A DNA stretch of 30,832 nucleotides from a virus. Both the position numbers and the translations under genes were made by a program. Shown here one piece after another: positions 2,560-19,090 of this stretch; the first letter of the stretch is position 1, and the number at the start of each line of letters is the position of its first letter. The notes under the pieces were generated by a model. It was not told the DNA's origin and made no database searches. It saw only the letters and a list, made by a program, of their open reading frames with translations. The stretch is from positions 1-30,832 of IMG/VR virus record IMGVR_UViG_3300009422_000028, one strand, 5' to 3'.

Positions 2560-3342
2560 ATGAAAAGAATCGTACTAGTCACAGGCGGATTTGATCCGCT
2601 ACACTCCGGGCATATTGCCTATTTCAAAGCAGCTAAAGAACTTGGAAACGAGTTATGGGTTGGCGTTAACAGCGACGAGTGGTTAACGAACAAAAAGGGT
2701 ATGCCGTTTATGCCCGTCCAAGAAAGAATTGCTATTATTAAAGAACTTGCTGTAGTAGACAATGTTATTACATTTAAAGATGATGAGGAAGGATCTGCAT
2801 GTGGTGCGATAGACGTAGCACTTAGAACATCTGAAACAATGCATGACAGAATAGTGTTTGCTAATGGCGGCGACAGAGGTGAAGGCAATTCACCAGAAGT
2901 AGAAAAATTTTCCAACAACGATAGAGTAGAATTTGAATTTGGCGTTGGTGGGACAGACAAAAAGAATTCAAGCAGTTGGATTTTAGGAGAATGGAAAACA
3001 CCTAAAACAACACGCAAATGGGGTTGGTATAGAGTACTAGATCATCAACCAGAAAATAATTTTAAAATTAAAGAACTAGTAATTGAGCCAGGTGCATCTC
3101 TTTCTGATCAAAGACATTTTAAAAGATCAGAACATTGGTATGTACTAAAAGGCAAAGTTAAAATAGATACTCAATGGAATGACATTAGTAATAGTGTAGA
3201 ACTTTTACCCTTGCAACGAGGGTATGATATTGCAGTAGGCACTTGGCACAAAGCAAGTAACCCCACAAACGAATTAACACATATACTAGAAGTTCAATAT
3301 GGTGAATCTTGTATCGAAGAGGATATTGAAAGACGTGACTGA
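2560..3342 (+). CDS. Cytidylyltransferase-like / cupin (mannose-6-P isomerase type) fusion
   Basis: A 260-aa two-domain protein. Residues 1 to ~140 form a nucleotidyltransferase of the HxGH superfamily: GGFDPLHSGH at 9-18 holds the signature HSGH, and the segment resembles the RfaE/HldE C-terminal adenylyltransferase and TagD-type enzymes. Residues ~150-260 resemble the type II mannose-6-phosphate isomerase cupin, with an SEHWYVLKGK strand and an ending LEVQYGE..EEDIERRD. Only part of the usual His-rich metal site is visible (RHFKRSEH). The expected role is to activate a sugar or polyol phosphate as a nucleotide sugar, with the cupin isomerising or binding a sugar. It is the first gene of the glycan block and follows a late promoter motif with no visible ribosome-binding site. 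Confidence 0.85.
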   Translation: MKRIVLVTGGFDPLHSGHIAYFKAAKELGNELWVGVNSDEWLTNKKGMPFMPVQERIAIIKELAVVDNVITFKDDEEGSACGAIDVALRTSETMHDRIVFANGGDRGEGNSPEVEKFSNNDRVEFEFGVGGTDKKNSSSWILGEWKTPKTTRKWGWYRVLDHQPENNFKIKELVIEPGASLSDQRHFKRSEHWYVLKGKVKIDTQWNDISNSVELLPLQRGYDIAVGTWHKASNPTNELTHILEVQYGESCIEEDIERRD

Positions 3343-4144
3343 TTGGATCTTCATAAGCAAGGGAAATAAAGATCCCTACATCAATCGTTTTGCTAGAGGT
3401 TGCAATTCAAGTGTGGTAGATTCTAATACCTTTGATTATGACGACTCGGAAAATCCAATTGTGCTACGTGGTATCTTAAAAAAGAAATGGATGCATCGTT
3501 GTATGGAAGATGCTAGAGACTTTTACTATATGGACACTGGATATTTTGGTAATGAAATTACTAAAAGCAATCCTAATGGTTGGAAGTTTTGGCATAGAAT
3601 TGTTAAAAACAATTTGCAACACAACAAAATTATTGAACGCCCATCGGCAAGATTTGAAGGATTTGGCAAGAAGTTTGTACCGTGGAATAAAAAAGGAAAG
3701 AAGATTCTTATTGCTGCGCCTGATGAAAAACCGATGAAATTTTACGATACTGATTTAGATACATGGTTATCTGAAACAGTTGAAACTATAAAGCAATACA
3801 CTGATAGACCTATAGAAATTAGACAACGATCTAAACAACGTGCAGATAGAATGGTGAGTAATACGCTTGAACAAGCATTAGCTGATGATGTATTTGCATT
3901 AGTTACATTTAATTCTAATGCAGCAGTTGAGTCTGTTTTCCAAGGAATACCAGTATTTACACTAGCACCTGTTAGTGCAGCACTACCTGTTGGATCAAAC
4001 GATTTAACAAAAATTGAAACACCGCATTACCCAACTCAAGACGTACTTTGGGCATGGGGATGTCATTTAGCACACGGTCAGTTTCACGATAGTGAATTAA
4101 GGACTGGCAAAGCTAAAGCATATTTGGAGGAAACATGGACTTAA
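3335..4144 (+). CDS. GT-B-like capsule-type glycosyltransferase homologue, paralogue A
   Basis: A 269-aa protein starting at GTG 3335, which overlaps the previous stop by 8 nt behind a GAGGA motif. An in-frame ATG at 3299 would overlap the previous gene by 44 nt and seems less likely. It belongs to a family present five times here. Shared marks are (Y/W)xxDTGYF...KxWHRIVKN in the first half, PWxxxGxxIL at mid-protein, YTDRPIEIR, and a final NSNAAVESVFQGIPVFTLAP block. That last block resembles the donor-sugar site of GT-B and capsule-synthesis proteins (invariant Ser/Asn before a small-residue helix and G-(I/V)-P). The closest named relatives I can suggest are KpsC/KpsS-like proteins; no function has been shown. 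Confidence 0.8.
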   Translation: MTDWIFISKGNKDPYINRFARGCNSSVVDSNTFDYDDSENPIVLRGILKKKWMHRCMEDARDFYYMDTGYFGNEITKSNPNGWKFWHRIVKNNLQHNKIIERPSARFEGFGKKFVPWNKKGKKILIAAPDEKPMKFYDTDLDTWLSETVETIKQYTDRPIEIRQRSKQRADRMVSNTLEQALADDVFALVTFNSNAAVESVFQGIPVFTLAPVSAALPVGSNDLTKIETPHYPTQDVLWAWGCHLAHGQFHDSELRTGKAKAYLEETWT

Positions 4145-4821
4145 AAGTATTCGTAGGATACGACACTAAAGAAGATATAGCTTATCAAGTTTGTAAGCAC
4201 AGCATTGAACGTCATAGCCCTACAGCAATAGTTAAACCACTAAAACAGTCTGAACTTAGAAGTCAAGGCTGGTATACAAGAGGCAACGATAAACTAGCAA
4301 GTACTGAGTTTACTTTTACTCGCTTCCTAGTACCAGAGCTTAGTAACTTTAATGGCTGGGCAGTATTTATGGATTGTGATATGTTGCTTACTACAGATAT
4401 TAAAGAACTGTTTGATCAAGCAGACGACAAGTATGCTATTATGTGTGTACATCACGACTATGCACCTAAAGAAGGCATTAAAATGGACGGACAAAAACAA
4501 ACAGTGTATCCACGTAAAAACTGGTCAAGTGTTATGTTGTTTAATTGCGGCCATCCTGCTAACAAAGCATTGACTATGGATTTAGTTAACGAACCAGAAA
4601 TTAACGGTGCATACTTGCATCGCTTTAGTTGGTTAGCAAGTGATGACTTAATTGGTGAAATCTCGCCCGAATGGAATTGGTTAGTAGGACACTACCAAGA
4701 GCCAACAGACGGCACACCAAAACTAATACATTACACGGAAGGTGGCCCGTGGTTTGAAAACTATCGTACATGCGAATACCATAAAGAGTGGAAAGCTGAA
4801 TTACAGGACATGATGAGATAA
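4135..4821 (+). CDS. GT8-like (GT-A fold) glycosyltransferase
   Basis: A 228-aa protein resembling family 8 or LgtC-like glycosyltransferases. It opens with LKVFVGYDTKEDIAYQVC, the typical first strand and helix of that fold. FTFTRFLVPEL at ~60-69 is followed by VFMDCDMLL, where D80-C-D82 is the metal-binding DxD motif. The later WNWLVGHY and KLIHYTEGGPWF segments match the acceptor side and the late His ligand of such enzymes. It would transfer a hexose from a nucleotide sugar, retaining its configuration. The ATG has a strong GGAGGA site and overlaps the previous gene by 10 nt; the next start overlaps its stop as TAATG. Confidence 0.85.
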   Translation: MDLKVFVGYDTKEDIAYQVCKHSIERHSPTAIVKPLKQSELRSQGWYTRGNDKLASTEFTFTRFLVPELSNFNGWAVFMDCDMLLTTDIKELFDQADDKYAIMCVHHDYAPKEGIKMDGQKQTVYPRKNWSSVMLFNCGHPANKALTMDLVNEPEINGAYLHRFSWLASDDLIGEISPEWNWLVGHYQEPTDGTPKLIHYTEGGPWFENYRTCEYHKEWKAELQDMMR

Positions 4822-5597
4822 TGACACTAAGCCCTGAAGAAATCTTAGTTAAGGGATCTGGAGACAAACTAACAGTTGAGTCTTCTAACTTATCCAAACC
4901 TATGGTTATTAGAGGTGTAATTAAAAAACAACATGCTGACAACTGTGTAAAAAATAATAGAGACTATTGGTACATTGACACAGGTTACTTTGGTAATTTT
5001 CCTAGTACAGGAAATAAAAAAGGCAATAAGAAGTGGCACAGGATTGTTAAAAATGAAAATCAACTATCTACGTTTAGACCAAATTTGCCACAAGATAGAT
5101 GGAACAACCTTGTTAAAGATGATCCAAGAATTCAATGGTCAGGCTGGAAGAATCACGATAAAAAGATTCTATTAGTAATGCCTAATCCTAAAGCATGTGC
5201 ATGGTATAATGTTGACTATAACAAATGGGTCAAACAAACTACAAAACAGATTAAACAACATATTGATTTACCAATTGAAGTAAGAATTAAAGGTTCACGT
5301 ACAGCACGTAACTTCGAATACTCAATTTACGATGCTTTTAATTCTGGAGTGTATGCTACAGTAACAATGAATAGCATGGCTGCACTTGAATCTGTTCTAT
5401 ACGGTATTCCAGCATTTGTTACATCGCCTTGCGCAGCTACACCTTTAGCGTCAACGGACCTAAGTCAGCTTAGTAGTCCTTACTATCCTGAATTGGATAA
5501 AATACAACAGCACTGTCATAGCCTTGCGTATGGACAGTTTACATTTGATGAAGTTGAGTCTGGTGCTGCATACAACTTAGTGGAGAAATACAGCTAA
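4821..5597 (+). CDS. GT-B-like capsule-type glycosyltransferase homologue, paralogue B
   Basis: This 258-aa protein is closely similar to paralogue A across its full length. It shows VIRGVIKK, WYIDTGYFGN, KKWHRIVKN, an IL..MPNPKA segment, IKQHIDLPIEVR, then NSMAALESVLYGIPAFVTSP and LSSPYYPE. The shared order suggests a tandem duplication later split by the GT8 gene. Its N-terminal half is as short as in A, so both lack the longer first domain seen in paralogues D and E. They may act with a partner subunit or be minimal enzymes. Start and stop overlap both neighbours as TAATG, indicating translational coupling. Confidence 0.8.
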   Translation: MTLSPEEILVKGSGDKLTVESSNLSKPMVIRGVIKKQHADNCVKNNRDYWYIDTGYFGNFPSTGNKKGNKKWHRIVKNENQLSTFRPNLPQDRWNNLVKDDPRIQWSGWKNHDKKILLVMPNPKACAWYNVDYNKWVKQTTKQIKQHIDLPIEVRIKGSRTARNFEYSIYDAFNSGVYATVTMNSMAALESVLYGIPAFVTSPCAATPLASTDLSQLSSPYYPELDKIQQHCHSLAYGQFTFDEVESGAAYNLVEKYS

Positions 5598-6703
5598 TGA
5601 AATTGCTGATGAACGATAAAGAAATTGCAAACTTTTTACTGTCGTTAGTGCCAGTGCCTGAAGAGTTATTCAAATTTAATATGCAAGACAGATACTGTGC
5701 AACTTATATTCAAGACCATCTTAGTAAAAAAGCTAAATGGAAAGAACCAAATCGCAAACTGGAACCAGATGAAAAGAAGAAATTTAGAGATAAACTTCTT
5801 AAAGCTGTACGCAGAGATTTAGATGAATGGGTTGATGTAGTTAACAAAAACAAAGGCGGAATACGTGATAACTATTTTCACGCAATACATAATAACATTG
5901 AATATTTTATTGATGCATTTGGCATCGACGAAATCTTTGCAAAATATAAAGTTGCTGAATATAAAAACTTTGTAAAAGGTACTGGCGCACATCTTGGTGC
6001 CGGTGCAAACAACGAATTTATTAGAAGAAAAGAGTTTACTTCGTTTACTGATGATTGTCTAATTAGAAACACAGTTGGTAATGAAGATCTGCTTGTTACA
6101 AAAATTGATAACAACTATCCTTTTTGGTTTATTGATAGCGGTTATACAAACTTCCTCGAATCAAATAAAAAATGGCATAGACTAGTGCGTAGTCATTTAC
6201 ACTACGGCAAGTCTTTTGATGCACCTGCAGACAGATTAGGTAATTTTAAAAAGTTTCCTAGACCTTGGAGGAAAGACGGAGAAATTATTTACGTAATTGA
6301 ACCTGGACCGTTTGCAGCAAGTATTATGCACGTAGATCTAAAAACTTGGAAGTATGATGTAGCAAAAGAGTTACGTAAGTATACTGACAAGCGCATTAGA
6401 TTTAGATCTAAGGCACCTAAAAAGAAAAGAACTGACCTACATAAAGAATTGTTAAATGACGATTATTACTGCTTAGTAAACATTAATAGTAACGCAGCAA
6501 CAGAAGCTATATGGGCCGGAGTTCCAGCTATAACGCTAGATACACACATAACAAACCCAGTAACACGCAATAAATTATCAGATATTAACAACCTTTATCG
6601 TGATAATATTGGATCTTGGTTATGTATGTTAAGCTATTCTCAATTTACAAAAGAAGAACTACTTAACGGAAAAGCAGCGTCAGTTGTAAAGAGACTTCCA
6701 TGA
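5597..6703 (+). CDS. GT-B-like homologue with extra N-terminal domain, paralogue C
   Basis: A 368-aa protein, longest of the five paralogues. Residues ~150-368 carry the family marks: FWFIDSGYTNF, KKWHRLVRS, RPWRKDGEIIYVIEPG, YTDKRIRFRSK, INSNAATEAIWAGVPAITLD and a YSQFTKEELLNGKAA end. The first ~140 residues form a separate charged helical domain rich in Lys and Asp that the others lack; I do not recognise it. Loss of the usual Pro in T-D-(R/L)-P (here TDKRI) and altered post-site residues show divergence. The start overlaps the previous stop and the end overlaps the next gene by ATGA. Confidence 0.78.
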   Translation: MKLLMNDKEIANFLLSLVPVPEELFKFNMQDRYCATYIQDHLSKKAKWKEPNRKLEPDEKKKFRDKLLKAVRRDLDEWVDVVNKNKGGIRDNYFHAIHNNIEYFIDAFGIDEIFAKYKVAEYKNFVKGTGAHLGAGANNEFIRRKEFTSFTDDCLIRNTVGNEDLLVTKIDNNYPFWFIDSGYTNFLESNKKWHRLVRSHLHYGKSFDAPADRLGNFKKFPRPWRKDGEIIYVIEPGPFAASIMHVDLKTWKYDVAKELRKYTDKRIRFRSKAPKKKRTDLHKELLNDDYYCLVNINSNAATEAIWAGVPAITLDTHITNPVTRNKLSDINNLYRDNIGSWLCMLSYSQFTKEELLNGKAASVVKRLP

Positions 6704-7617
6704 CGTTAACAGCAGTAGCATACTATGCTGGCATTCCGCCACATAATAACAATCCAGAAAAGCCACTAATCTTAGATAACTTTCTAGCAGGTGTTAAGGC
6801 AGCTGGTGATAATGCTATTGACCATCGACAGTTAAGTACAATTCCACATGCTGATGTTGCATTGATACAAGGGTTTGTACACGAACACGGAAAAAATGCA
6901 CCTCATCTTGTTTTAAGAAAAAATGCAGTAGAACAACAACAGCAACCAGGTAAACGATCTTTAATAGTTGACAGTAATTTATTTTTAGCATACGATCAAG
7001 GAAATACAAATCGTTATTTACGATATAGTTACGATGGAGTATTTCCCACTACAGGATTTTATTTTGATACAGATGTTGATCCTACTCGCTGGCAAAAAAT
7101 TAGTAGCAGATTAAATATTCAAATGAAACCTTGGAGAACTGAAGGTAATCATATTCTAGTATGTTTGCAACGCAACGGCGGTTGGAGTATGCGTGGGTAT
7201 AATAGTGTACAATGGGCGAACGATACTATTGCAACTATTAGAAACATAACTGATAGACCAATATTAGTTAGAGGACATCCAGGCGATAAAAAGACAAGAT
7301 ACTTTCCGCAACATAAAGATGTATTTGTAAGCAATTCACCTAGTATTCTACAAGATTTAAAGAACGCATGGGCAACTGTGCTATATAATAGTAGTCCTAG
7401 TGTTATTAGTGCAATTGAAGGAGTTCCGGTATTCTTAACTGATCCTAGTCCAGAACACAGTCAGAGTCACGAAGTAGCAAATACAAAAATTAAAAGATTA
7501 AATGATCCAAAACTTTTTGATAGGCAGGAATGGATAGAAAAGTTGGCAATGTGCCATTGGAACTTTCAAGAACTAGCCTCAGGAGAGGCATGGAAACACT
7601 TTAGGAGATACATATGA
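6700..7617 (+). CDS. GT-B-like homologue, paralogue D
   Basis: This 305-aa member keeps a fuller N-terminal half (VAYYAGIPP...KPLILDNFLAGVKAAGD). That resembles the acceptor-side Rossmann domain of GT-B proteins and is shared in outline with paralogue E. The second half shows KPWRTEGNHILVCLQR, ITDRPILVRGHPGDK, NSSPSVISAIEGVPVFLTDP and a WNFQELASGEAW end. HPGDK parallels HPR in paralogue E and is the typical RxHP element of capsule-type transferases, absent from A-C. It therefore looks closer to the ancestral form. It overlaps both neighbours by ATGA. Confidence 0.78.
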   Translation: MTLTAVAYYAGIPPHNNNPEKPLILDNFLAGVKAAGDNAIDHRQLSTIPHADVALIQGFVHEHGKNAPHLVLRKNAVEQQQQPGKRSLIVDSNLFLAYDQGNTNRYLRYSYDGVFPTTGFYFDTDVDPTRWQKISSRLNIQMKPWRTEGNHILVCLQRNGGWSMRGYNSVQWANDTIATIRNITDRPILVRGHPGDKKTRYFPQHKDVFVSNSPSILQDLKNAWATVLYNSSPSVISAIEGVPVFLTDPSPEHSQSHEVANTKIKRLNDPKLFDRQEWIEKLAMCHWNFQELASGEAWKHFRRYI

Positions 7618-8360
7618 TTAAATTAGACAATGGATGGCATATGCCAGACAACGAAGTAAAGATGACTAGACATATTCAAGAAGATACTGATATGTATAAT
7701 CCTAATTACGAAAGAAAAATTAGAGATGCTATTTTAGCAGCCATTCCGATCAAAGGAATATTTGTTGATGTTGGTGCTAACGTAGGACTTTGGTCAATGG
7801 ATATGAAAAAACATTTTAGAAAAGTAGTTTCTTATGAGCCTAGTGAAAGAGTTCACGAATGCCTAGTAAAAAACTTAGGTGAGTATGATACCATTAACAT
7901 TAGACGTAAAGCATTAGGCGATAAAGCTGTAACTGTACAGTTTCATGACGGGATTAAAAACTGCGGTGATAGTAAAATTGCAATGTGGGAGTCTGATGCG
8001 TTTTATTATGTTGATGTTGTAAAATTAGACGATGAAGGTATCAAGAATATTTCATTAATTAAAATTGATGTGCAAGGATACGAATTACCGGCAGTTTTAG
8101 GAATGGAAAAAGTTATTGAAGAGCAGCAACCGTGGGTAGCATTTGAAATTAATAATGATGTTGACGTTATTTGTAAGTTTTTAGAAGATAGAGGTTACGA
8201 CCAAATATACATGAAGTCAAAAAGAGTGTTAATTTATGCACCAAAAACAGGACCTATGGCGCCAGCAAGTAAATTTATGGGTAGATACTTAGGACCAGGA
8301 CCTTATGAAAAATTAAGTGGTAAAAGTGGTAAAGTAATTCCGTTGCAACAAGGAAGATAG
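7614..8360 (+). CDS. FkbM-family methyltransferase 1
   Basis: A 248-aa SAM-dependent methyltransferase of the FkbM family. Motif I is FVDVGANVGLW (DVGANVG at 52-58), the acidic end of strand 2 is VVSYEPS (~71-77), and the family mark IKIDVQGYE is at ~149-157, followed by a strand ending in FEIN. FkbM enzymes methylate hydroxyls, often on sugars or polyketides, so within this operon O-methylation of a glycan is likely. The last ~45 residues, rich in Gly and Pro (GPMAPASKFMGRYLGPGPYE), lie beyond the usual domain. The ATG overlaps the previous stop. Confidence 0.88.
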   Translation: MIKLDNGWHMPDNEVKMTRHIQEDTDMYNPNYERKIRDAILAAIPIKGIFVDVGANVGLWSMDMKKHFRKVVSYEPSERVHECLVKNLGEYDTINIRRKALGDKAVTVQFHDGIKNCGDSKIAMWESDAFYYVDVVKLDDEGIKNISLIKIDVQGYELPAVLGMEKVIEEQQPWVAFEINNDVDVICKFLEDRGYDQIYMKSKRVLIYAPKTGPMAPASKFMGRYLGPGPYEKLSGKSGKVIPLQQGR

Positions 8361-8361
8361 T

Positions 8362-8781
8362 GTGAACAAGGCTGCGAAACGTATTCAAAAATGTGCTTTT
8401 AAAAGACCGTTTGTTGATTGCTTAGTAATCGGCACAGGCATGGGTGCATTTGACGAATTATTTGATTTATTTGACACTGTTTTTGTATATGACAAAGGAG
8501 CACCTAGAGTAAGACGATCTAATGTAGTATACAAAGCAAAATTAAAAGATTGCTCACTGTCAACAATCACTACTGTGTTTATAGATAGAGAATTAGTAAA
8601 AGTTTTAGACCACTTAGGCGCTATTTTAGCAAACCCTTCACCTGATGTATTCATAGCAGGAGAAGAGCCTATTGATAGAAACCAAAGTGCCAATTTGTAT
8701 AGGCACAAATATAATTGTAAAATGACAACAGGAACATTTCATGTTTGGACCTGTATGAAAAACGGAGAATTTTTCCAATGA
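8362..8781 (+). CDS. Short Rossmann-like protein, possibly a reduced methyltransferase fold
   Basis: A 139-aa protein starting at GTG one base after the previous stop; AGGAAG lies just upstream. I do not recognise the family. VDCLVIGTGMGAFDELFDLFDTVFVYDKG reads as strand, Gly loop, helix, strand with a terminal Asp, as in a SAM- or nucleotide-binding Rossmann fold. SNVVYKAKLKDC and TTVFIDRE could be the next strands. It stops after about half the length of a full methyltransferase, so it may be a reduced or regulatory relative. The TGA overlaps the next ATG (ATGA), so it is coupled to the GT-A gene. Confidence 0.7.
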   Translation: MNKAAKRIQKCAFKRPFVDCLVIGTGMGAFDELFDLFDTVFVYDKGAPRVRRSNVVYKAKLKDCSLSTITTVFIDRELVKVLDHLGAILANPSPDVFIAGEEPIDRNQSANLYRHKYNCKMTTGTFHVWTCMKNGEFFQ

Positions 8782-9590
8782 CAATAAGTGTAGTAACAAC
8801 ATTCCACGCAAAAGGCTTACAACAGTACGGACAACGTATGATTGATAGTTTTATTGATAATTGGCCTTCAGAAATTAAGTTGCATGTATACGCAGAAGAT
8901 TGTAACCCTAAAATTAAGGATCATAGCAGAATTGAATTGTATGATCTACATTCAAGTGTGCCAGAGCTAGTTGCATTTAAACAAAGATGGAAAGATGTCC
9001 CTAAAGCAAACGGTGATGTAAGTGGTGACCCTATTCGTAGTAGAAGACGTGACTCGGGTAAAGGATTTAAATGGGACGCAATTCGTTTTGCACACAAAGT
9101 ATACAGTATTTTTCACTGTGCTACTATATGCGATACTGAAAGACTTATGTGGATGGATGCAGACACTTTTTGCCACAGTCCGATATCCTATAGTCGAGTA
9201 AACGATCTTGCTCCACCACACAAAGATATTTGTTTTCTTGGAAGAAAAGGTAAGTTTTCAGAATGTGGACTATATTCAATGACGCTAGGTAACAAGCAAA
9301 CAACACGCTTTATGAGAGAATTTAAAAGGGTATACGAAGAAGCAGAAAACAATGGTATCTTTCAAATGGAAGAGTGGCATGACAGTTATGTATTTGATGT
9401 AGTTCGATCAAGAGTACCTATGAACGAGTGGAATTGGGCCGAAGGCCTAGTTACTGGTGAAGGCCACCCGCTTATTAATTCGATGTGGGGAGCATATCTT
9501 GATCATCTCAAAGGTGGACGTAAACAATTAGGTAAAAGTAAACGCACAGATTTACTTGTGCCTAGAACTGAAGCATACTGGAATCAGTAA
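8778..9590 (+). CDS. GT-A-like glycosyltransferase, paralogue 1
   Basis: A 270-aa protein; I place the start at ATG 8778, overlapping the previous stop as ATGA, rather than the in-frame ATG at 8745. The first strand, TISVVTTFHAKGLQQYGQRM, suits a GT-A fold. WMDADTF near 125-131 contains a DxD motif for metal and nucleotide-sugar binding. It shares several marks with the gene at 14141: VPELxxFKxR, an (R)FxHKxYxIxHCA helix and a W-(M/I)-D-(A/S)-D strand. Residues ~74-96 form an Arg-rich insert absent from that paralogue. It probably transfers a sugar in the same pathway. Donor and acceptor cannot be read from the sequence. Confidence 0.8.
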   Translation: MTISVVTTFHAKGLQQYGQRMIDSFIDNWPSEIKLHVYAEDCNPKIKDHSRIELYDLHSSVPELVAFKQRWKDVPKANGDVSGDPIRSRRRDSGKGFKWDAIRFAHKVYSIFHCATICDTERLMWMDADTFCHSPISYSRVNDLAPPHKDICFLGRKGKFSECGLYSMTLGNKQTTRFMREFKRVYEEAENNGIFQMEEWHDSYVFDVVRSRVPMNEWNWAEGLVTGEGHPLINSMWGAYLDHLKGGRKQLGKSKRTDLLVPRTEAYWNQ

Positions 9591-10453: not shown

Positions 10454-10478
10454 TTTATATCGTTAACTGTTGTATAAT
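10450..10478 (+). promoter_or_regulatory. Sigma70-like promoter, fused to start codon at 10485
   Basis: TTGATT (10450-10455), a 17-nt spacer and TATAAT (10473-10478). Six nucleotides separate the -10 box from ATG 10485, so the predicted transcript begins at or next to the start codon. No ribosome-binding site is present. Confidence 0.75.
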
Positions 10479-10484
10479 AGTATT

Positions 10485-11681: not shown

Positions 11682-13122
11682 ACTTATTATCAAAGACGAG
11701 GTGAACATTAAAGTAGATGGTCTTGCCATTGAGACACGAAGAAAGATTGCTAACAAGTTAAAATATGACTTGCCGTATGCTAGGCACATGCCTGCATATA
11801 AGTTAGGCCGCTGGGACGGTACTATGACTTTCTTTGGAATTGGCGGAACAGGGTTCCTTGCACACTTAGATATTATTATTCCTACTATTACCGGTGACGG
11901 ATATGAAATTGAAGTAATAGATCATCGTACTGCTCCAGAGTTAACGTTTACACCTATTACAGAAAACTATTGGGCCGATCAAGGAAAAGTATGGCCTAAA
12001 GGACATCAGTTAGAAGGACAGCCTATTGTACTTAGAGATTATCAATATGATGTTGTTAACCAGTTCTTAGAAAATCCACAAAGTTTACAAGAAGTAGCAA
12101 CCGGAGCAGGTAAAACTATTACTACTGCTACACTGAGTCACTTGTGCGAACCTTATGGACGTAGTATTGTAATTGTTCCTAACAAAAGTCTTGTTGTGCA
12201 AACAGAAGAAGATTATCTTAATTTAGGACTTGATGTAGGTGTATACTTTGGTGATAGAAAAGAACTAGGAAAGACACACACTATCTGTACATGGCAAAGT
12301 CTTAATGTATTAGATAAAAAAGGCAAATACAATGACGCACTAACATTAGCAGAATTCTTAGAAGGCGTTAATACAATTATTATTGACGAAGTGCATCAAG
12401 CAAAAGCAGATGTTCTTAAAAAACTGCTTACAGTAAATTTAAAAAATGCTCCAATTCGTTGGGGACTAACTGGAACTGTACCTAAAGAACCTTGGGAATT
12501 TCAAGGCATACTTGCAGGCATTGGTCCAGTAATTAACAATGTTTCGGCACACGATTTACAAGAGAAAGGTGTACTTGCAAAGTTAGATATACAAATTTTA
12601 CAAACAAAAAATATTGAGGAATTTAGAAACTATCAAGAAGAATATACTTGGTTGGTAACAGATCCTAATAGAATATCTTGGATATCTTCTAAAGTGAAAG
12701 AATTTTCACTAACTGGTAATACATTAGTATTAGTAAACAGAATTGATACAGGTAAAAAAATTATAGAACATATACCTGAAGCAGTTTTTGTTGCTGGCGA
12801 AATGAAATTAGCTGATAGGAAAGATGAGTATGATGAAATTAAAACAAGTGATGGCAAAATTATCATTGCTACCTATGGCGTGGCTGCTGTCGGGATTAAT
12901 ATCCCTCGCATATTTAATCTGGTGCTTATTGAACCTGGCAAAAGTTTTGTTAGGGTAATTCAAAGTATTGGACGTGGGGTACGTATTGCTGAAGACAAGG
13001 ACTTTGTACAAATATGGGATATTACATCAACGTGTAAATATGCAAAACGCCATTTAACTGAACGCAAGAAGTTTTATAGAGATGCAAAATATCCGTTTCA
13101 TATTACAAAGGTAGATCAATAA
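11671..13122 (+). CDS. uvsW: UvsW superfamily 2 helicase
   Basis: A 483-aa SF2 helicase, close to T4 UvsW (~500 aa). It shows a Q-tip LRDYQ near 121-125, Walker A ATGAGKT at 143-149, DEVH at 239-242, LTGT at 266-269, and a C-terminal motif VI with IQSIGRGVRI. The first ~100 residues form the small N-terminal DNA-binding domain typical of UvsW. UvsW unwinds R-loops and branched DNA and drives fork regression, which in T4 switches origin-dependent to recombination-dependent replication. The start is TTG at 11671, inside the previous gene behind GAGGAA; an internal GTG (11701) would cut the N-domain. Confidence 0.95.
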   Translation: MNCKLIIKDEVNIKVDGLAIETRRKIANKLKYDLPYARHMPAYKLGRWDGTMTFFGIGGTGFLAHLDIIIPTITGDGYEIEVIDHRTAPELTFTPITENYWADQGKVWPKGHQLEGQPIVLRDYQYDVVNQFLENPQSLQEVATGAGKTITTATLSHLCEPYGRSIVIVPNKSLVVQTEEDYLNLGLDVGVYFGDRKELGKTHTICTWQSLNVLDKKGKYNDALTLAEFLEGVNTIIIDEVHQAKADVLKKLLTVNLKNAPIRWGLTGTVPKEPWEFQGILAGIGPVINNVSAHDLQEKGVLAKLDIQILQTKNIEEFRNYQEEYTWLVTDPNRISWISSKVKEFSLTGNTLVLVNRIDTGKKIIEHIPEAVFVAGEMKLADRKDEYDEIKTSDGKIIIATYGVAAVGINIPRIFNLVLIEPGKSFVRVIQSIGRGVRIAEDKDFVQIWDITSTCKYAKRHLTERKKFYRDAKYPFHITKVDQ

Positions 13123-13137
13123 GAAGATAAAAAATAC

Positions 13138-13166: not shown

Positions 13167-13234
13167 ACAGTATAAAGTATCTAGTAAAAAACTATAAAAG
13201 TGATACAGTTGCGTATTACTATAACGGAGAATAA

Positions 13235-13744
13235 ATGAGTAGAATATTAACATTGGAAAACAAGGCGTTTAATCTAAACGAACTGCCGGACGAAGTCGAA
13301 GAAGATGCAAGATTTAGTGTACTAGATAATTCGGATGCAAGTTATCCTGATTTCTACTTTATGCCTTTGATATTTCTTGAGTCTTTTAACAGCCCAGCTA
13401 TCTTAATGAATATTGGTGGATATGAAATACAGATGCCACTAGATTGGTGTATGCTTGTTGGAGATAGTGACTGCGGAACAGACCCTGAGGTATTGCCGTT
13501 AACTTCAATTAATGAACGTGGATTTGAAGCATTTGTTATAAACCCTATTAAAGGTTACAGATCAGAATTTGCAGCAGTAGAGATTATTAACATCTATCAA
13601 GATGTTCGTTGGTACTTTCCTAAGATGAAAAATGGACAACTGCTAAGTGTGCCATTACATGATGGGCATAATCCATTGTGTGCATATTTTGTTAAAGAAA
13701 TTAGCAGGCAGTCAGAACAGCTCGAATTGGCTAACCTACTCTGA
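13235..13744 (+). CDS. Conserved marine T4-like phage protein of unknown function
   Basis: A 169-aa protein. I recall similar sequences in cyanophage and pelagiphage genomes, unnamed. Distinctive segments are PLDWCMLVGDSDCG, EVLPLTSINERGFEAFVINP, IYQDVRWYFPKMKNGQLLSVP and CAYFVKEIS near the end. The composition suggests a compact mixed alpha/beta soluble protein with no signal peptide or membrane segment. It has its own leader with a good ribosome-binding site behind a near-consensus promoter, so early expression is likely. The conserved DW and WYFPK patches could serve protein binding; no reaction can be proposed. Confidence 0.82.
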   Translation: MSRILTLENKAFNLNELPDEVEEDARFSVLDNSDASYPDFYFMPLIFLESFNSPAILMNIGGYEIQMPLDWCMLVGDSDCGTDPEVLPLTSINERGFEAFVINPIKGYRSEFAAVEIINIYQDVRWYFPKMKNGQLLSVPLHDGHNPLCAYFVKEISRQSEQLELANLL

Positions 13745-13784
13745 TAATTAAGTTAGTACATTATAAAATGTTTTTAGGAGAATT

Positions 13785-14144
13785 ATGATGAGCATAAAAG
13801 CAGGTAAAATTTGGGGTTCTACAGAATTAATTCACGCTAATGGCGTACTTGAGTTCCACCGAATTGAATATAAAGCTGGATTTAAATGCAGCGAACACGA
13901 ACATGAATTTAAATGGAATGGCTTCTTTGTAGAGTCAGGAAAGATGATTGTACGTGTATGGCAAGAAGATCAAGAAGGATTAGTAGATGAAACTATTCTT
14001 GAAGCAGGAGACTTTACACAAGTTAAGCCTGGTAAGATACATCAGTTTGAAGGTGTAGAAGATGGCGTTGCATTTGAGTTGTATTGGGCAGAGTTCAATC
14101 ACAATGATATTAAACGTAGGTCTGTAGGTTCTTCTGTAAAATGA
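13785..14144 (+). CDS. Single-domain cupin
   Basis: A 119-aa cupin (118 aa if the second ATG, 13788, is used; that one has the better 7-nt distance to AGGAG). Metal-ligand candidates in motif 1 are in SEHEHEFKWN (His 38, His 40), and motif 2 is EAGDFTQVKPGKIHQFEG with His 86. Small cupins next to glycosyltransferases usually act on nucleotide sugars or sugar phosphates as isomerases or epimerases. Metal binding here is predicted from pattern only. It overlaps the next gene by ATGA, placing it as first gene of the second glycan block. Confidence 0.8.
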   Translation: MMSIKAGKIWGSTELIHANGVLEFHRIEYKAGFKCSEHEHEFKWNGFFVESGKMIVRVWQEDQEGLVDETILEAGDFTQVKPGKIHQFEGVEDGVAFELYWAEFNHNDIKRRSVGSSVK

Positions 14145-14890
14145 AATTAGGTGTTGTATCGACATTTAGCGATAAAGGTTATCATGAATACGGTAAGCAT
14201 TTCGTAGAGAGCTGTAGACGATTTCTTGATCCTAATATAACAGTTTACATTTATGTAGATAATATTGTAATTGAAAACCCGCCAGCAAATTTTGTTATTA
14301 GAAAATTAGAACCTTCAGTACCAGAGCTTACAGAATTTAAAAAACGTAATGCTCATAGAGTACCGGGTAAATTTATATATGACGGTGTAAGATTTAGTCA
14401 CAAAAGTTATTGTATATGGCATTGTGCAAACAACGCTGATGTTGATACGTTATGTTGGATTGACAGCGATGCTGAAATATTCAACCGTATTACTAAAGAA
14501 TATCTTAAATCATTTTTGCCAGACGGATTATTTGTAAGTTATTTAGGAAGACCGCATTATACAGAAACAGGGTTCCTTGCGTTTGATTTAACGCACAAGC
14601 ACTCTAAAGAATTTTTTGATGTGTGGAAAGAGTATTATACAAACGATACCATCTACGACCTAGCAGGACAATTAGATTGTCATGCGTTTGACGCTGCGAG
14701 AGAAAGACTTGAACAAGAAGGAAAGATACACAATTTTGATATTGCTGGTGTACGTTTCCCAGGGTTAGGTAAAAATCATTTTAATGCAGCACTTGAAAAT
14801 CACATTATACACTACAAAGGTGATCGAAAATTAAAGAGAGACGAGCAATTAGCTCGTGCATTGAAACGAATGAACAAAGGTAAAAACTAA
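14141..14890 (+). CDS. GT-A-like glycosyltransferase, paralogue 2
   Basis: A 249-aa protein homologous to the gene at 8778. Both start with a V(S/T)TFxxKGxxxYG strand-helix and share VPELTEFKKR, DGVRFSHKSYCIWHCA and CWIDSDAEIF, where D108-S-D110 is the DxD motif. It lacks the ~20-residue Arg-rich insert of paralogue 1. Late residues FPGLGKNHFNAALENHIIHYKG contain the acceptor-side His region expected of GT-A enzymes. The C-terminus is basic (RKLKRDEQLARALKRMNKGK), which could contact a polyanion or membrane surface. It is coupled to the cupin by ATGA. Confidence 0.8.
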   Translation: MKLGVVSTFSDKGYHEYGKHFVESCRRFLDPNITVYIYVDNIVIENPPANFVIRKLEPSVPELTEFKKRNAHRVPGKFIYDGVRFSHKSYCIWHCANNADVDTLCWIDSDAEIFNRITKEYLKSFLPDGLFVSYLGRPHYTETGFLAFDLTHKHSKEFFDVWKEYYTNDTIYDLAGQLDCHAFDAARERLEQEGKIHNFDIAGVRFPGLGKNHFNAALENHIIHYKGDRKLKRDEQLARALKRMNKGKN

Positions 14891-14891
14891 G

Positions 14892-15107
14892 ATGAGTGTT
14901 AAAGGAATCAACGGACTGAAGCATAAAAAAGAAGCAGAATTTATTCTTCAGATAACTCGTACAGCAACAATTAGAGAAGAAAAAACTTTTGTTGTTGATA
15001 TGTACGAAGGTAAAGATTTAATTGAAAGTCGTAAGTTGCCCGGATATAGTAAAGCGTATGCAGAAAGCTGTGCTGAGAACTGGGAAAACGGTGTTATTGA
15101 AAAATGA
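14892..15107 (+). CDS. Small unknown protein between glycan genes
   Basis: A 71-aa soluble protein not recognised. It reads as a short basic N-terminus, a central beta-type segment (EAEFILQITRTATIREEKTFVVDMYEG split into two strands) and a helix with AYAESCAENWENG. Coupling is tight: 1 nt after the previous stop, and its TGA overlaps the next ATG. It is thus probably translated with the epimerase. It may be a regulatory or chaperone-like partner, but nothing in the sequence shows that. Confidence 0.7.
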   Translation: MSVKGINGLKHKKEAEFILQITRTATIREEKTFVVDMYEGKDLIESRKLPGYSKAYAESCAENWENGVIEK

Positions 15108-15961
15108 AAGTAGTACTAACAGGTCATAAAGGGTTTATTGGTAGTCACTATCATGATTACATTAAAGGCTCCAATGACGTTACTACATACGATTTAGCAT
15201 CAGGACAAGACTTGTGTAATTTAGAGATAGTTTCTCAAACACCAGATGCTGATGTTGTAGTGCATATGGCTGCAACAAACGGAACTAGATTATTCTACGA
15301 AACGCCTACAGCAGTTGCATTTAATAATACAATTCCTACATTTAACTTAATCCAACGCTACATTAACACCAACGCAAAGTTTGTGTTTACTAGCACATGC
15401 GAAATTTTTAATGGAGCAATTGACAACGGTTATTACGATGTTCCAACAGACGAAAATGTTCCAGTAATGTTTAACGACATTATAAATCCACGCTGGAGTT
15501 ATAGTATTCCTAAAGCACTAGGTGAAAACTTAGTAGCTAACTCAGGACTTAAATGGTTAGTCATACGTTACTTTAATATATATGGTCCGCGACAAAAGGA
15601 TCATTTTATTAGTGAATTTGTAGAACGTGTAGCAAAAGGCGAGTATTATATCAAAGGTGACGACACTCGTAGTTTTTGTTATATAGACGATGCTGTTAAG
15701 TTAACACACGAACTTATTGAAAACCACGACAATCAGATTATCAACGTTGGTAGACAAGAAGAAAATAGTATCAGTGATGTAGCTAGAATTATTATGGACA
15801 TTATGGGAGTTGACCCAGCTAAACTTGAAGTACTACCTGGACTAAAAGGTAGTGCAAAACGCCGTTGTCCAGATACATCTAAATTACTTTTATCAACAGG
15901 CCCTTTTGAGTATACACCATTAAAAGTTGGTCTTAAACAAACAGTGGAGTCATTATTATGA
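15104..15961 (+). CDS. NAD-dependent sugar epimerase/dehydratase (extended SDR)
   Basis: A 285-aa extended short-chain dehydrogenase. The dinucleotide-binding loop is TGHKGFIGSH (residues 6-15), followed by a conserved HMAA at 54-57, the catalytic Ser/Thr region TSTCE at 96-100, and Tyr133-SIP-Lys137. NIYGPRQ and the late GDDTRSFCYIDDAV are also typical. Such enzymes epimerise or dehydrate nucleotide sugars (UDP-glucose, GDP-mannose, dTDP-glucose); the exact substrate cannot be told. It is short for the family (usually 310-350), losing part of the C-terminal substrate domain. It shares a coupled operon with the UDP-sugar dehydrogenase, suggesting consecutive steps. Confidence 0.88.
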   Translation: MKVVLTGHKGFIGSHYHDYIKGSNDVTTYDLASGQDLCNLEIVSQTPDADVVVHMAATNGTRLFYETPTAVAFNNTIPTFNLIQRYINTNAKFVFTSTCEIFNGAIDNGYYDVPTDENVPVMFNDIINPRWSYSIPKALGENLVANSGLKWLVIRYFNIYGPRQKDHFISEFVERVAKGEYYIKGDDTRSFCYIDDAVKLTHELIENHDNQIINVGRQEENSISDVARIIMDIMGVDPAKLEVLPGLKGSAKRRCPDTSKLLLSTGPFEYTPLKVGLKQTVESLL

Positions 15962-16755
15962 AATTAGGAATCATAGGTGCTGGTACAGTTGGCACTGCAA
16001 ATAAACTAGGATTCGAACACATCGGGCATAAAGTTGTGTCGCACGATATTAAACTTGATACAAAAATTACAGATATCATGGACACAGATATTTGTTTTTT
16101 GTGCGTTCCAACACCTAGTACTGACGATGGAGATTGTAATACTTCGATTATTGAAAGTGTAATAGACGAACTTGCTAGTATTGAATACAAAGGTATTATT
16201 GCTATTAGAAGTACAGCCGTTCCAGGGTTTACACAAAGTATGATCGAAAAACATAAAAACTTAACTATTGCGTTTGTTCCAGAGTTTTTACGTGAGCGTT
16301 GTGCATTAGATGACTTCCTTAACAATCATAAATTACTTGCAGTAGGCACACATGACATTTGGGTACACAGAAAAATGGTCGAGTGTCACGGAGATTTACC
16401 ACAGAATATAGTACACTTAACACCGAACGAAGCAGAAGTGCTTAAATACTATAACAACGTTTATGCCGCAGTAAGGGTTACGTTTGCAAATGTTATGTAT
16501 GAAATTTGTGAAAAACTAAACTGTGACTACAATACTATTAAGAATGCATATATTAAAACAGGCAAAGCAATTGACATGTACTTAGATGTTTATCCGGATC
16601 TAAGAGGATACGGTGGTGCATGTTTACCTAAAGATACTAAAGCTCTTGCAGGGCTTATTAAAAAATTAGACTTGCCTTTTGACTTGTTAGATGTTGTCAC
16701 GGAGGACAACAGCAAAGTAAAAAAGACCGTGTTTAATGGAATGAGGGAAGATTAA
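15958..16755 (+). CDS. Short UDP-glucose/GDP-mannose 6-dehydrogenase
   Basis: A 265-aa member of the nucleotide-sugar 6-dehydrogenase family. The NAD loop GAGTVG is at 7-12, the conserved VPTPS at 50-54, RSTAVPG at 84-90, FVPEFLRE at 107-113 and the catalytic Cys222 in GYGGACLPKDTKAL. The usual C-terminal UDP-binding domain (~130-150 residues) is absent: full-length enzymes have 390-450 residues. The protein stops soon after the central helix. Such short forms may still oxidise a nucleotide sugar to a uronic acid or may use another protein as lid. It overlaps the epimerase by ATGA and the next gene by TAATG. Confidence 0.88.
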   Translation: MKLGIIGAGTVGTANKLGFEHIGHKVVSHDIKLDTKITDIMDTDICFLCVPTPSTDDGDCNTSIIESVIDELASIEYKGIIAIRSTAVPGFTQSMIEKHKNLTIAFVPEFLRERCALDDFLNNHKLLAVGTHDIWVHRKMVECHGDLPQNIVHLTPNEAEVLKYYNNVYAAVRVTFANVMYEICEKLNCDYNTIKNAYIKTGKAIDMYLDVYPDLRGYGGACLPKDTKALAGLIKKLDLPFDLLDVVTEDNSKVKKTVFNGMRED

Positions 16756-17417
16756 TGGACCACGTAGCTGCTGAAGATTTAAAAGATATTATTAAATGGC
16801 CAGGTGGCGTACGTCCTCACATCTTAGATATAGGAGCAAACCAAGGGCAGTTTGCTAGAGAGATGAGAGAAACATTTGGCAATGCATTTATCTATTCCAT
16901 TGAAGCTAATCCCATTTGTGAAGTTAAATTGCAGAAAGGAATGAAACACGGTACTGTTAACGAATATCAAATTGTTGCATTAGGCAAAGAAGAAGATACA
17001 TTAGATTTCTTTCGAAATAAAACTAAGCCACAAGGAAAAGGTGCAAGTTTTTATCCTGAGATTACAGATACAAATCTTGAGTGCGTAAAGATTCCTGTTA
17101 GGAGATTAGATGATGTAATTCCAACTGACCATTATCATTTAATTAAAATTGATGTGCAAGGTGCTGAAGCAGATGTAATCACCGGTGGCGAAACTACAAT
17201 TCAAAAAGCAAAATATGTTATACTGGAATTAGCAATCACTCCGTACAATGAAAATGCTCCACTAGGTATGGAATTAGTTGAGCAAATGAATAACTTAGGA
17301 TTTGGTTTAATATCATGTATTACTGAACATTCAAATGACGGAAACGTAATTCAAATTGACGGTGTGTTTGGTAAAGAACAAGAAAACAACACAGCAGTTA
17401 TGGAATATTTTAATTAA
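16755..17417 (+). CDS. FkbM-family methyltransferase 2
   Basis: A 220-aa SAM-dependent methyltransferase. It has PHILDIGANQGQFA (motif I at 25-31), IYSIEANP at strand 2, VRRLDDVIP and the family mark IKIDVQGAEAD at ~131-140, followed by YVILELAI. It differs from the FkbM protein at 7614 in sequence and lacks the Gly/Pro tail, so the two are not a recent duplication. O-methylation of a sugar in the same glycan pathway is the likely role. Both ends overlap neighbours as TAATG. Confidence 0.88.
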   Translation: MDHVAAEDLKDIIKWPGGVRPHILDIGANQGQFAREMRETFGNAFIYSIEANPICEVKLQKGMKHGTVNEYQIVALGKEEDTLDFFRNKTKPQGKGASFYPEITDTNLECVKIPVRRLDDVIPTDHYHLIKIDVQGAEADVITGGETTIQKAKYVILELAITPYNENAPLGMELVEQMNNLGFGLISCITEHSNDGNVIQIDGVFGKEQENNTAVMEYFN

Positions 17418-18154
17418 TGCATTATAAACTAGACTACGAAAAACAAGTGCATTCACAGCACGGCGAAGATGGTATCATTGAACAAATGACTAATGCTATC
17501 AAAAACCCAGATCTAACTTTCTTAGAACTTGGCTGGGGAGATGGCGGCACAAATATGACTAACTATCTACAGTTTGATAAAGGCTGGACCGGTATAGGTG
17601 TTGACGCAAAAGAAAATCCTAAAGGTGCTAATAGGTTTACTGATAAGTTTACACACGTTAACTCTTTTGTGTATCCGCATAATGCAAAGACATTTATTAA
17701 AAATATTCCTTATAACCCAGACTTTTTTAGTTTAGACATTGATAGCTATGACTACGCTGTTGCACACGAACTATTTTTAAATTGTGGGTTTAGACCTAAA
17801 ACAGTGTGTGTTGAATTTGCAGATACATTTGGTCCAAATACAATTGGTAGTTTTCCGTATGTTGCAAGTATGCCATATAAGACTCTTAGAAAAGGTAAAT
17901 TAACAACGTCTGGATGTAGCTTAAAGAAATGGCAGTTGTTCTTTGAAAAATTTAATTATACATATTTTGGCTTCGACACAAGTAGTACAAACTGCTTTTT
18001 TTATAACCCGGACGAGTGTAACACAATCGATCTTAACATATTAGAAATTACAGAATTATCTTATACCAACGACACTGAAATAAAAAAACATATTCGTGCT
18101 AGTGTATGGAACGAACATTATGATAAAATTTTTAGTTTAGACTTAGGAGTCTAA
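17417..18154 (+). CDS. SQxGED-type methyltransferase-like protein
   Basis: A 245-aa protein with the N-terminal mark HSQHGEDGII (13-20). That motif is typical of a group of putative methyltransferases often found beside FkbM proteins and glycosyltransferases. A Rossmann-like beginning follows (LTFLELGWGDGGTNMTNYLQ), with a possible strand-2 end WTGIGVDAKENP, FFSLDIDSYDY and VCVEFADTFG. Motif I is altered (ELGWGDG rather than DxGxxxG), so SAM binding is not certain. It probably acts on a glycan or lipid-linked sugar with the preceding methyltransferase, to which it is coupled. Confidence 0.78.
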   Translation: MHYKLDYEKQVHSQHGEDGIIEQMTNAIKNPDLTFLELGWGDGGTNMTNYLQFDKGWTGIGVDAKENPKGANRFTDKFTHVNSFVYPHNAKTFIKNIPYNPDFFSLDIDSYDYAVAHELFLNCGFRPKTVCVEFADTFGPNTIGSFPYVASMPYKTLRKGKLTTSGCSLKKWQLFFEKFNYTYFGFDTSSTNCFFYNPDECNTIDLNILEITELSYTNDTEIKKHIRASVWNEHYDKIFSLDLGV

Positions 18155-18178
18155 TAATGCAACAAGAAAGGAACTGTC

Positions 18179-18367
18179 ATGCAACACAAAATAAGCGAAC
18201 TGTGCGACAAGGTCGCAGTTATCTATGTAAAGTCCGAGCAACTAAGAAAATTAAAATATAATGTACCTAAAGAACAGCAAGACAAAAGCCAAATAGATTT
18301 TCTTGTTGCAGATATACAGACTCTGTGCAGGGAGGTGGGTTACGACAGAGGCCCATACTCTAAATAG
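18179..18367 (+). CDS. Small unknown helical protein
   Basis: A 62-aa protein with a heptad-like Leu/Val helix early (ISELCDKVAVIYVKSEQLRKL) and ending YDRGPYSK. AAAGGA lies 8 nt upstream of the ATG. Not recognised. Its stop overlaps the GTG of the next gene by one base, so the two small genes are coupled. Confidence 0.65.
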   Translation: MQHKISELCDKVAVIYVKSEQLRKLKYNVPKEQQDKSQIDFLVADIQTLCREVGYDRGPYSK

Positions 18368-18549
18368 TGGATGTAAGCGATAAAGAGATTGCTAGATTGT
18401 TTTTTATAACTAAAGGACATCTTGTACAAATGAAGACAATGGCTGAGTGCTATGACGGATACTTTAGACGCATGTGGAACAATCACGAAGCAACATATCG
18501 CGAAGAAGGTTTTGAAGAAGCATGGAGAAAATATAAAAATGATATCTAA
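18367..18549 (+). CDS. Small unknown protein, GTG start
   Basis: A 60-aa helical, charged protein (DVSDKEIARLFF; YFRRMWNNHEATYREEGFEE). The GTG start overlaps the previous stop (TAGTG), and the end overlaps the next start by 11 nt. I do not recognise it. It is short, sandwiched and coupled; it may be a host-targeting or regulatory protein, but that is only a guess. Confidence 0.65.
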   Translation: MDVSDKEIARLFFITKGHLVQMKTMAECYDGYFRRMWNNHEATYREEGFEEAWRKYKNDI

Positions 18550-19090
18550 AGAATACCAAGAAGTACTTTCACTAATACACAGTGGAACTAAATTTGGAAA
18601 AAGATCAAAGATACCAGAACATTTGAAAAAGTTCATTTCAAAAAATCATATTAGATCTATGATCGATTTTGGCTGCGGCAAAGGTCAGTTAATTGACGTG
18701 CTAAAGCACAACTACCCTACTATAGATATTATGGGCTATGATCCTTGTAATCCAAAATTTAATGTACCATTAAAGAAAGTTGATTTAATCTTTTCAACAG
18801 ATGTGTTAGAACATATCGAACCCAATCACCTCGACAAAACACTACAAGAAATCAAAGAACACAGTGATTATGTGTATCATCTAATAAGTTGTGCGCCAGC
18901 CAAACTTATACTTCCAGACGGGCGTAATGCACATCTTATACAGCAAGAGCCAGAATGGTGGAAACAGAAGCATTTGGATTTGGGATACGAGATACTCAAA
19001 GAAGAATACCGATCTTTTAGCAAATATTCAAAACAACTTGGCAGATCTATCCCAGTTAAAAACTATTTTATAATGGCAAAACTAACTTAA
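18539..19090 (+). CDS. Class I SAM-dependent methyltransferase
   Basis: A 183-aa protein starting at ATG 18539, behind GGAGA and overlapping the previous stop. The in-frame ATG at 18452 would run 98 nt into the preceding gene, so I reject it. Motif I is SMIDFGCGKGQLIDVL (GCGKG at 45-49), strand 2 ends IMGYDPC, and FSTDVLEHIEP is the post-motif typical of Methyltransf_11-type enzymes. A likely substrate is a small molecule or sugar, given the operon; a protein or nucleic acid is possible. It is the last gene of the second glycan block. Confidence 0.8.
   Translation: MISKEYQEVLSLIHSGTKFGKRSKIPEHLKKFISKNHIRSMIDFGCGKGQLIDVLKHNYPTIDIMGYDPCNPKFNVPLKKVDLIFSTDVLEHIEPNHLDKTLQEIKEHSDYVYHLISCAPAKLILPDGRNAHLIQQEPEWWKQKHLDLGYEILKEEYRSFSKYSKQLGRSIPVKNYFIMAKLT

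Follow-up and report, generated by a model that had tools for sequence, protein, structure and literature searches.

What might a phage build with a run of sugar genes set among its recombination genes? The question is raised by a DNA stretch of 30,832 nucleotides (the window) that makes up the entire IMG/VR record IMGVR_UViG_3300009422_000028; the record (30.8 kb) is linear and therefore probably a fragment. Open reading frame (ORF) listing and family searches place 16 sugar-type genes at 2560-19090, all on the + strand, with neighbours mostly overlapping by 1, 4 or 10 nt. An earlier note, made from the sequence alone, had counted about 15 and given them a joint role in glycan assembly, a role that is supported both by the predicted folds and motifs of the glycosyltransferases (GTs) and by the block-wise gain and loss of genes between uvsY and uvsW. 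In our proposal they constitute a module devoted to glycan assembly in a lineage of jumbo myoviruses, with a virion protein as its preferred acceptor, a reading to which we assign a probability of roughly 0.43.

A glycan block at a fixed site

The sugar genes are split between slot A (2560-10453), bounded by uvsY on one side and on the other by the gene at 10470 that precedes uvsW, and slot B (13785-19090), which lies between genes 13235 and 19293. Slot A and its flanks are as follows, with NT-cupin standing for the nucleotidyltransferase-cupin fusion and AF2 for AlphaFold2.

728-1804, +: UvsX recombinase, left flank, conserved core (PF00154, 5.5e-17; 66% to Sinorhizobium phage Phosso)
2069-2524, +: UvsY homologue, left border of slot A (46% to an annotated recombination protein, PF11056, of Vibrio phage 2.275.O)
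2560-3342, +: NT-cupin, an RfaE/TagD-type nucleotidyltransferase (HxGH) fused to a type II mannose-6-phosphate isomerase-like cupin (PF01467, 8.6e-15; PF01050, 3.1e-18)
3299-4144, +: GTB1, GT-B-like, without (K/R)XHP (homologous to the modelled GTB4; motif columns)
4135-4821, +: GT8-type glycosyltransferase with DxD and a C-terminal H-G-PW motif (PF01501, 26.9 bits against a cut-off of 24.3)
4821-5597, +: GTB2, GT-B-like paralogue (38% to GTB1)
5597-6703, +: GTB3, GT-B-like paralogue with an N-terminal extension (28% to GTB1)
6700-7617, +: GTB4, GT-B, with a predicted beta-Kdo-transferase-like fold, Q157 and R-x-H-P, and no Asp nucleophile (AF2 model, motifs)
7614-8360, +: FkbM1, FkbM-type methyltransferase (PF05050, 6.6e-12)
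8362-8781, +: gene 8362, a small protein inside the block (no family match; weak homologues adjoin GTA1 in relatives)
8778-9590, +: GTA1, retaining GT-A type (AF2 model; DxD and HxK invariant); the start is probably ATG 8778, with GGAG upstream, not TTG 8745
9590-10453, +: GTB5, GT-B, with Q-H-D-K-S and R-P-H-P (homologous to GTB4; GTB4/GTB5 alignment)
10470-11681, +: gene 10470, conserved ahead of uvsW (homologues detectable at many empty sites too)
11671-13122, +: UvsW helicase, right border of slot A (PF04851, 2e-17)

When NT-cupin served as bait, most of the loci retrieved had the block in the uvsY-uvsW interval, but such loci are biased toward its presence. With UvsW plus UvsX as a neutral bait, we obtained 61 loci that span uvsY-uvsW, some of them from one contig, and their intervals are nearly bimodal: 22 are filled (6.1-9.9 kb), 35 are empty (about 1.2-1.3 kb and free of sugar genes) and 4 hold the NT-cupin alone. 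GTB4 and GTB5 occur at all 22 filled sites and GT8 and GT-A at 21 of them, and there is no glycosyltransferase at the 39 remaining loci. The idea that the block is core to the whole phage group was rejected; the NT-cupin bait had been misleading, and the neutral bait revealed the empty sites.

On a UvsW tree of 69 rows the block state changes 4 times, compared with a mean of 22.5 when states are shuffled; the tree contains two strongly supported all-block clades (13 and 15 rows) and two block rows amid block-less ones. Block genes diverge in step with UvsX and UvsW when pairwise distances are compared (r 0.64-0.93, and 0.64-0.92 for core genes against glycosyltransferases, in taxa that are mostly NT-cupin-baited). 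Comparison of two sister groups gives block genes a ratio of nonsynonymous to synonymous substitution rates (dN/dS) of 0.016-0.156, with uvsX at 0.058 and uvsW at 0.044, and every block gene is under purifying selection. Based on the tree changes, the distance congruence and dN/dS, the block is inherited stably and under selection as a unit that has rarely been gained or lost, and this at a single site. The same genes come back at this position in dozens of independent contigs, which is beyond chance; the neighbourhood search that the earlier note had suggested finds the set in jumbo-phage relatives. Relative to the sources searched, a nearly bimodal block at a fixed site, with empty-site sister phages, is new.

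The four loci with NT-cupin and no glycosyltransferases (L271, L278, L279 and L295, of the 61) show an intermediate state with an interval of about 2.0 kb. In many relatives (L029, L030, L036, L051, L061, L078) GTA1 keeps its place and is strand-inverted relative to the rest of the block.

A jumbo-phage lineage

The UvsX of the window is nearest to that of jumbo phages (Phosso 66%, Vibrio phage 2.275.O 63%, also Atu_ph07 and Rak2-like phages), and gp23 of block-carrying contigs is 65-70% identical to that of Phosso, Vibrio phage 2.275.O and PA5oct. This kinship indicates a marine/freshwater lineage within that jumbo superclade; judged by these proteins, the phage is a jumbo myovirus of Rak2/PA5oct-like kind and not T4 proper, which revises the T4-like placement first given to it. 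Vibrio phage 2.275.O has the gene order gp32-uvsX-uvsY-x-uvsW-...-primase-gp41 without sugar genes, and Phosso shares the portion of this order from gp32 to the homologue of gene 20683, also without sugar genes.

A 335-kb jumbo-phage contig of the same lineage (L133, or G031:C57) has a capsid gene and a complete copy of the glycan block. It is binned in a Neomarinimicrobiota metagenome-assembled genome (PBPT01000016.1), which may be mis-binning; a second contig, C77, has the same block.

Glycosyltransferases of slots A and B

None of the five GT-B-like or two GT-A-like proteins scores above a Pfam family cut-off, and profiles built from the GTB and GTA alignments find no match among PDB sequences; fold comparison alone succeeded. 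One GT-B (GTB4) and one GT-A (GTA1) were modelled by AF2, and the paralogues were assigned by alignment to these. One row from an annotated phage record was left out of the structure-model alignment, and the pooled GTB alignment was too diverse for scanning viral contigs. The GTB4 model, with a mean predicted local distance difference test score (pLDDT) of 90.7, matches solved GT-B enzymes, best KpsC (Z 15.2 over 244 residues, root-mean-square deviation 3.7), WbbB (Z 13.6) and KrkA (Z 12.1), with other, unrelated GT-B enzymes at a Z of about 11. It has the modified GT-B fold of the retaining transferases of beta-linked 3-deoxy-D-manno-oct-2-ulosonic acid (Kdo), families GT99, GT107 and GT140.

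In beta-Kdo transferases, the Gln of a QXXXD motif binds the carboxylate and its Asp is the nucleophile, while (K/R)XHP binds cytidine monophosphate (CMP) (PMC12887879, PMC10148158, PMC9587256). In the alignment of 30 GTB4/GTB5 sequences, this Gln (Q157) is invariant, and R191-x-H193-P194 and the phosphate-site S231 are likewise present in 30/30. The Asp at +4 occurs in a single sequence, Gly or Ser replacing it in the other 29, including the window copies, where GTB4 has QRNGG and GTB5 has QHDKS in place of QXXXD. Two phage relatives keep the full motif, L033 (QLGGD) and the homologue in podovirus MW202713 (QVPQD). Because the Gln, R-x-H-P and Ser are kept but the Asp is lost, we infer that GTB4 and GTB5 use a CMP-ulosonate-type donor through an altered mechanism. 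A GT-B family with the Kdo-transferase fold and CMP motif and without the nucleophile is also new relative to the sources searched. GTB1-3 lack both the Gln and (K/R)XHP, and have P141 and R-x-(K/R) instead (GTB1/GTB2 alignment; GTB3 compared with GTB1).

The GTA1 model (pLDDT 90.9) resembles GT6 (Z 14.7) and a PBCV-1 capsid glycosyltransferase (Z 14.3). GTA1 and GTA2 have the predicted GT-A fold, the DxD and the C-terminal HxK of retaining GT-A (GT6/GT8-like) enzymes, with D138, D140, H254 and K256 in 21/21 aligned sequences. The GT8 protein combines a PF01501 match above cut-off with DxD and a C-terminal His-Gly-Pro-Trp (15 phage homologues aligned). The PF01501 match, the confident AF2 folds and the paralogue alignments thus uphold the initial count of eight glycosyltransferase-like proteins (one GT8, two GT-A, five GT-B), and for most proteins of the set profiles and predicted folds agree with glycan-enzyme identity.

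GTB3 (5597-6703) has an extra N-terminal segment of about 110 amino acids (aa) with a sub-threshold match to Csm6 HEPN (E 1e-3, 19.2 against 23.4 bits).

Sugar-modifying enzymes and the second slot

Slot B, together with the carbamoyltransferase gene further on, comprises the following.

13785-14144, +: small cupin (PF07883, 1.3e-7)
14141-14890, +: GTA2, GT-A paralogue (31% to GTA1)
15104-15961, +: short-chain dehydrogenase/reductase, nucleotide-sugar epimerase/decarboxylase-like (PF01370, 7.8e-30)
15958-16755, +: short uridine diphosphate (UDP)-sugar dehydrogenase-like protein, catalytic GGACLPKD kept (PF03721, PF00984; no PF03720)
16755-17417, +: FkbM2, FkbM-type methyltransferase (PF05050, 1.4e-15)
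17417-18154, +: SQHGED-motif protein, putative methyltransferase (motif alone, no profile match)
18452-19090, +: class I methyltransferase (PF13489, 1.6e-9)
24833-26290, +: NodU/CmcH-type carbamoyltransferase, unlinked to the block (PF02543/PF16861; PF16861 1.4e-48)

The matches to PF01467 with PF01050, PF01370, PF07883 and PF13489 agree with the original naming of the NT-cupin fusion, epimerase, cupin and class I methyltransferase. The nucleotide-sugar dehydrogenase is recognisable from PF03721 and PF00984, but the protein (265 aa) has only the NAD and central domains and is missing the C-terminal UDP-binding domain; it scores 161 bits against TIGR03026, below the cut-off of 190. Among three proposed FkbM/SQxGED methyltransferases, PF05050 identifies those at 7614-8360 and 16755-17417, but the SQHGED protein at 17417-18154 shows the motif only, with no match in Pfam, PHROG, NCBIfam or PDB sequences. 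The best PDB matches of the epimerase are UDP-glucose 4-epimerase and UDP-glucuronate decarboxylase. HSGH is invariant in 26 NT-cupin sequences, and the protein reaches 68 bits against TIGR02199 (the HldE/RfaE domain II equivalog), whose cut-off is 181.5. Many cellular relatives of the NT-cupin occur in SAR11 and SAR86; with neighbours identified from sequence starts and tblastn, it lies behind a polA-like gene in SAR11 and, on some SAR86/gammaproteobacterial contigs, near Wzz-, UDP-sugar dehydrogenase- and NeuA-like genes.

Two slots of the replication array are sugar-filled in some lineages and near-empty in others. The small cupin, about 3 kb from the block, is present at 22 of 24 block-bearing loci versus 1 of 28 block-less ones, and other slot B sugar genes at 17/24 versus 0/28. 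Mostly 78-90% identical among distant block relatives, the cupin exceeds UvsX in conservation in some comparisons; it has no close match among solved structures. Corrected for relatedness, its association with the block rests on few independent events: in an independent-pairs test, 1.7 of 3 pairs agreed in direction and none went the opposite way, too few for significance. Slot B gene content differs among relatives, and the epimerase, dehydrogenase, FkbM2 and SQHGED genes are confined to the nearest ones. In two relatives KdsA and KdsB homologues lie in slot B beside the cupin, and a third has a NeuA/KdsB-like CMP-sugar synthetase there; in Synechococcus phage S-SCSM2R, KdsA/KdsB stand beside a GT8 homologue. 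To call the set a complete pathway, as the earlier note did, was an overstatement, since no sugar kinase is recognised, the dehydrogenase is truncated and several genes occur only in the nearest relatives.

Carbamoyl capping was considered as a linked step and rejected. The predicted carbamoyltransferase is indeed present, but it does not travel with the block (8/9 block-bearing and 9/12 block-less loci), and a gene that occurs with or without the block is not to be counted in the pathway. Just before it, at 24588-24833, is an 81-aa DUF2061-like membrane protein found at 5/9 block-bearing and 0/12 block-less loci.

Elsewhere in the window, 20683-21249 encodes a conserved 188-aa protein that begins with PDIDIDF, the DnaE/PolC active-site motif, without the rest of the polymerase; its Phosso homologue (54% identical) is annotated as DnaE-like. 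The product of 22523-23428, in the replication region, is BppU_N-like at a sub-threshold score, and its Phosso homologue is annotated as a virion structural protein. A tRNA-Arg (gcg) lies at 29234-29310 on the - strand, opposed to all adjoining genes.

Proposed mechanism and acceptor

We propose that the NT-cupin and the small cupin would make or tailor a nucleoside diphosphate- or CMP-activated sugar, and that a soluble cytosolic relay of GT8, GT-A and GT-B enzymes, the last with a CMP-ulosonate-type pocket, would build a short branched glycan. FkbM-type enzymes could then O-methylate it. Slot A may provide a conserved core and slot B a lineage-specific decoration. The acceptor would be a virion protein that receives its glycan in the cytosol, either ahead of assembly or while assembly proceeds, as in a flagellin glycosylation island.

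No Wzx-type flippase (PF01943) or initiating sugar-phosphate transferase (PF02397) was found on the phage contigs, including the 335-kb contig, whose completeness is not known, while controls matched; this argues against a self-sufficient lipid-linked polymer. Membrane segments are predicted in none of the glycosyltransferases, and FkbM1 is borderline, which together with these absences makes a soluble acceptor easier to accommodate. In Caulobacter phages, homologues of the GT8, GT-B and methyltransferase genes immediately follow tail genes, and in two podoviruses they are found amid genes for capsid/tail, terminase and stabilisation proteins; in Mosig and DLP_6 the homologous sets lie outside virion-gene neighbourhoods. 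Several observations weigh against a virion acceptor. On the 335-kb contig about 60 kb separates the block, which sits with recombination genes, from the capsid gene; the nearest folds, KpsC and WbbB, act on capsule or lipopolysaccharide (LPS); and the NT-cupin is a cellular gene that lies within surface-polysaccharide clusters on some SAR86 contigs. The major capsid protein was also compared in search of a glycosylation tag, and block-bearing sequences show no obvious difference from the single block-less one.

We nevertheless narrowly, and tentatively, prefer virion glycosylation to remodelling of the host envelope, which is itself a serious possibility. There, soluble glycosyltransferases would work at the inner leaflet, extending or capping the LPS core or capsule by a glycan that is Kdo-like or methylated, and so barring adsorption by rival phages or shielding the cell through a long infection. 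That the nearest folds are capsule/O-antigen beta-Kdo transferases would fit such a role, as would the KdsA/KdsB genes adjoining the block in relatives and the GT8 homologue in S-SCSM2R, the frequency of NT-cupin in SAR11/SAR86, with some SAR86 copies in polysaccharide clusters, and the way in which comparable genes have been interpreted in pelagimyophages (PMC7029224) and jumbo cyanophages (PMC7824862). It is less easily reconciled with the missing flippase and initiating transferase, with the placement of homologues in virion modules of unrelated phages, or with strong purifying selection and block-wise inheritance, which differ from the published "sporadic presence and polymorphisms".

Phage DNA, glycosylated in T4 and other hypermodified phages, had been named in the earlier note as another candidate acceptor. 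The thymidylate-synthase fold is that of T4 dCMP hydroxymethylase. A search in which controls matched found no protein of this fold on the 335-kb contig (completeness not known) or in any of 20 related records, which argues against T4-style DNA glucosylation; block-less sisters, moreover, retain the same replication genes. A Tet/JBP search gave no match, but no positive control matched either. Despite the replication-gene neighbourhood, and glycosyltransferases of other phages that hypermodify DNA (cited in PMC12619734), we regard DNA as a very improbable acceptor. A soluble product unrelated to virion, envelope or DNA, such as a small glycoside or exopolysaccharide precursor, would recall the secondary-metabolite-like cluster of jumbo cyanophages, with its cupins, methyltransferases and carbamoyltransferases (PMC7824862); eight glycosyltransferases per genome indicate a multi-residue glycan, however, and no release or export gene is recognised in the block, so we think this improbable. 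The genes might also have no joint role, having piled up independently in a plastic region. The variable content of slot B and the few contigs with NT-cupin alone are compatible with this, but the near-constant glycosyltransferase set of filled sites, its absence from all others, and the distance congruence of block and core genes leave it little likelihood.

Comparison with known systems

Phage sugar clusters are already known and have been read as O-antigen modification (PMC7029224, PMC7824862). Pelagimyophages likewise carry GT8, rfaE, UDP-glucose dehydrogenase and several glycosyltransferase genes, but mainly in a hypervariable island of structural genes next to the tail fibres, or dispersed (PMC7029224), whereas here, in another lineage, they form a syntenic uvsY-uvsW block. 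The capsular-polysaccharide clusters of jumbo cyanophages share cupin isomerases, HIGH-superfamily nucleotidyltransferases and paralogous glycosyltransferases with the block, yet are sporadic and polymorphic (PMC7824862) where the block is inherited as a unit at one site under purifying selection. Glycosyltransferases are also phage-borne in mycobacteriophages, whose glycans are on virion proteins (Freeman 2023, as cited in PMC12619734); the present block, by comparison, is known from its genes alone, with eight glycosyltransferases of two fold classes plus methyltransferases. The aquatic "moraphages" are likewise an aquatic jumbo lineage, with four putative glycosyltransferases in the shared genome; they are Bacteroidota phages, distant kin of marine-sediment huge phages, and the parts of PMC12619734 consulted describe no fixed-site block.

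Flagellin glycosylation islands occupy a fixed site at which 0.9-30.4 kb is present or absent, and carry CMP-sugar genes and FkbM (PMC5109656). The block resembles them in its fixed present/absent site, glycosyltransferases, CMP-ulosonate genes and FkbM methyltransferases; it differs in being phage-borne, without an identified Maf or pseudaminic/legionaminic acid (Pse/Leg) pathway, whereas the islands are bacterial with a known acceptor. The fuller proposal that it is their jumbo-phage counterpart, a virion-glycosylating block with new nucleophile-less CMP-ulosonate transferases of a different mechanism, is unlikely as a whole.

GTB4 shares with KpsC (GT107), WbbB (GT99) and KrkA (GT140) the predicted fold, the Gln, (K/R)XHP and the phosphate-binding Ser; those enzymes have the Asp nucleophile, which the window GTB4 and GTB5 do not. 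The family thus offers a probe of how nucleophile-using retaining Kdo transferases relate to enzymes with the same pocket and no nucleophile. Whereas phage glycosyltransferase genes are usually catalogued as scattered accessories, here a multi-gene set is one selectable unit at one site, and its block-bearing and block-less sister phages are a natural control that makes the target of phage glycan clusters directly testable.

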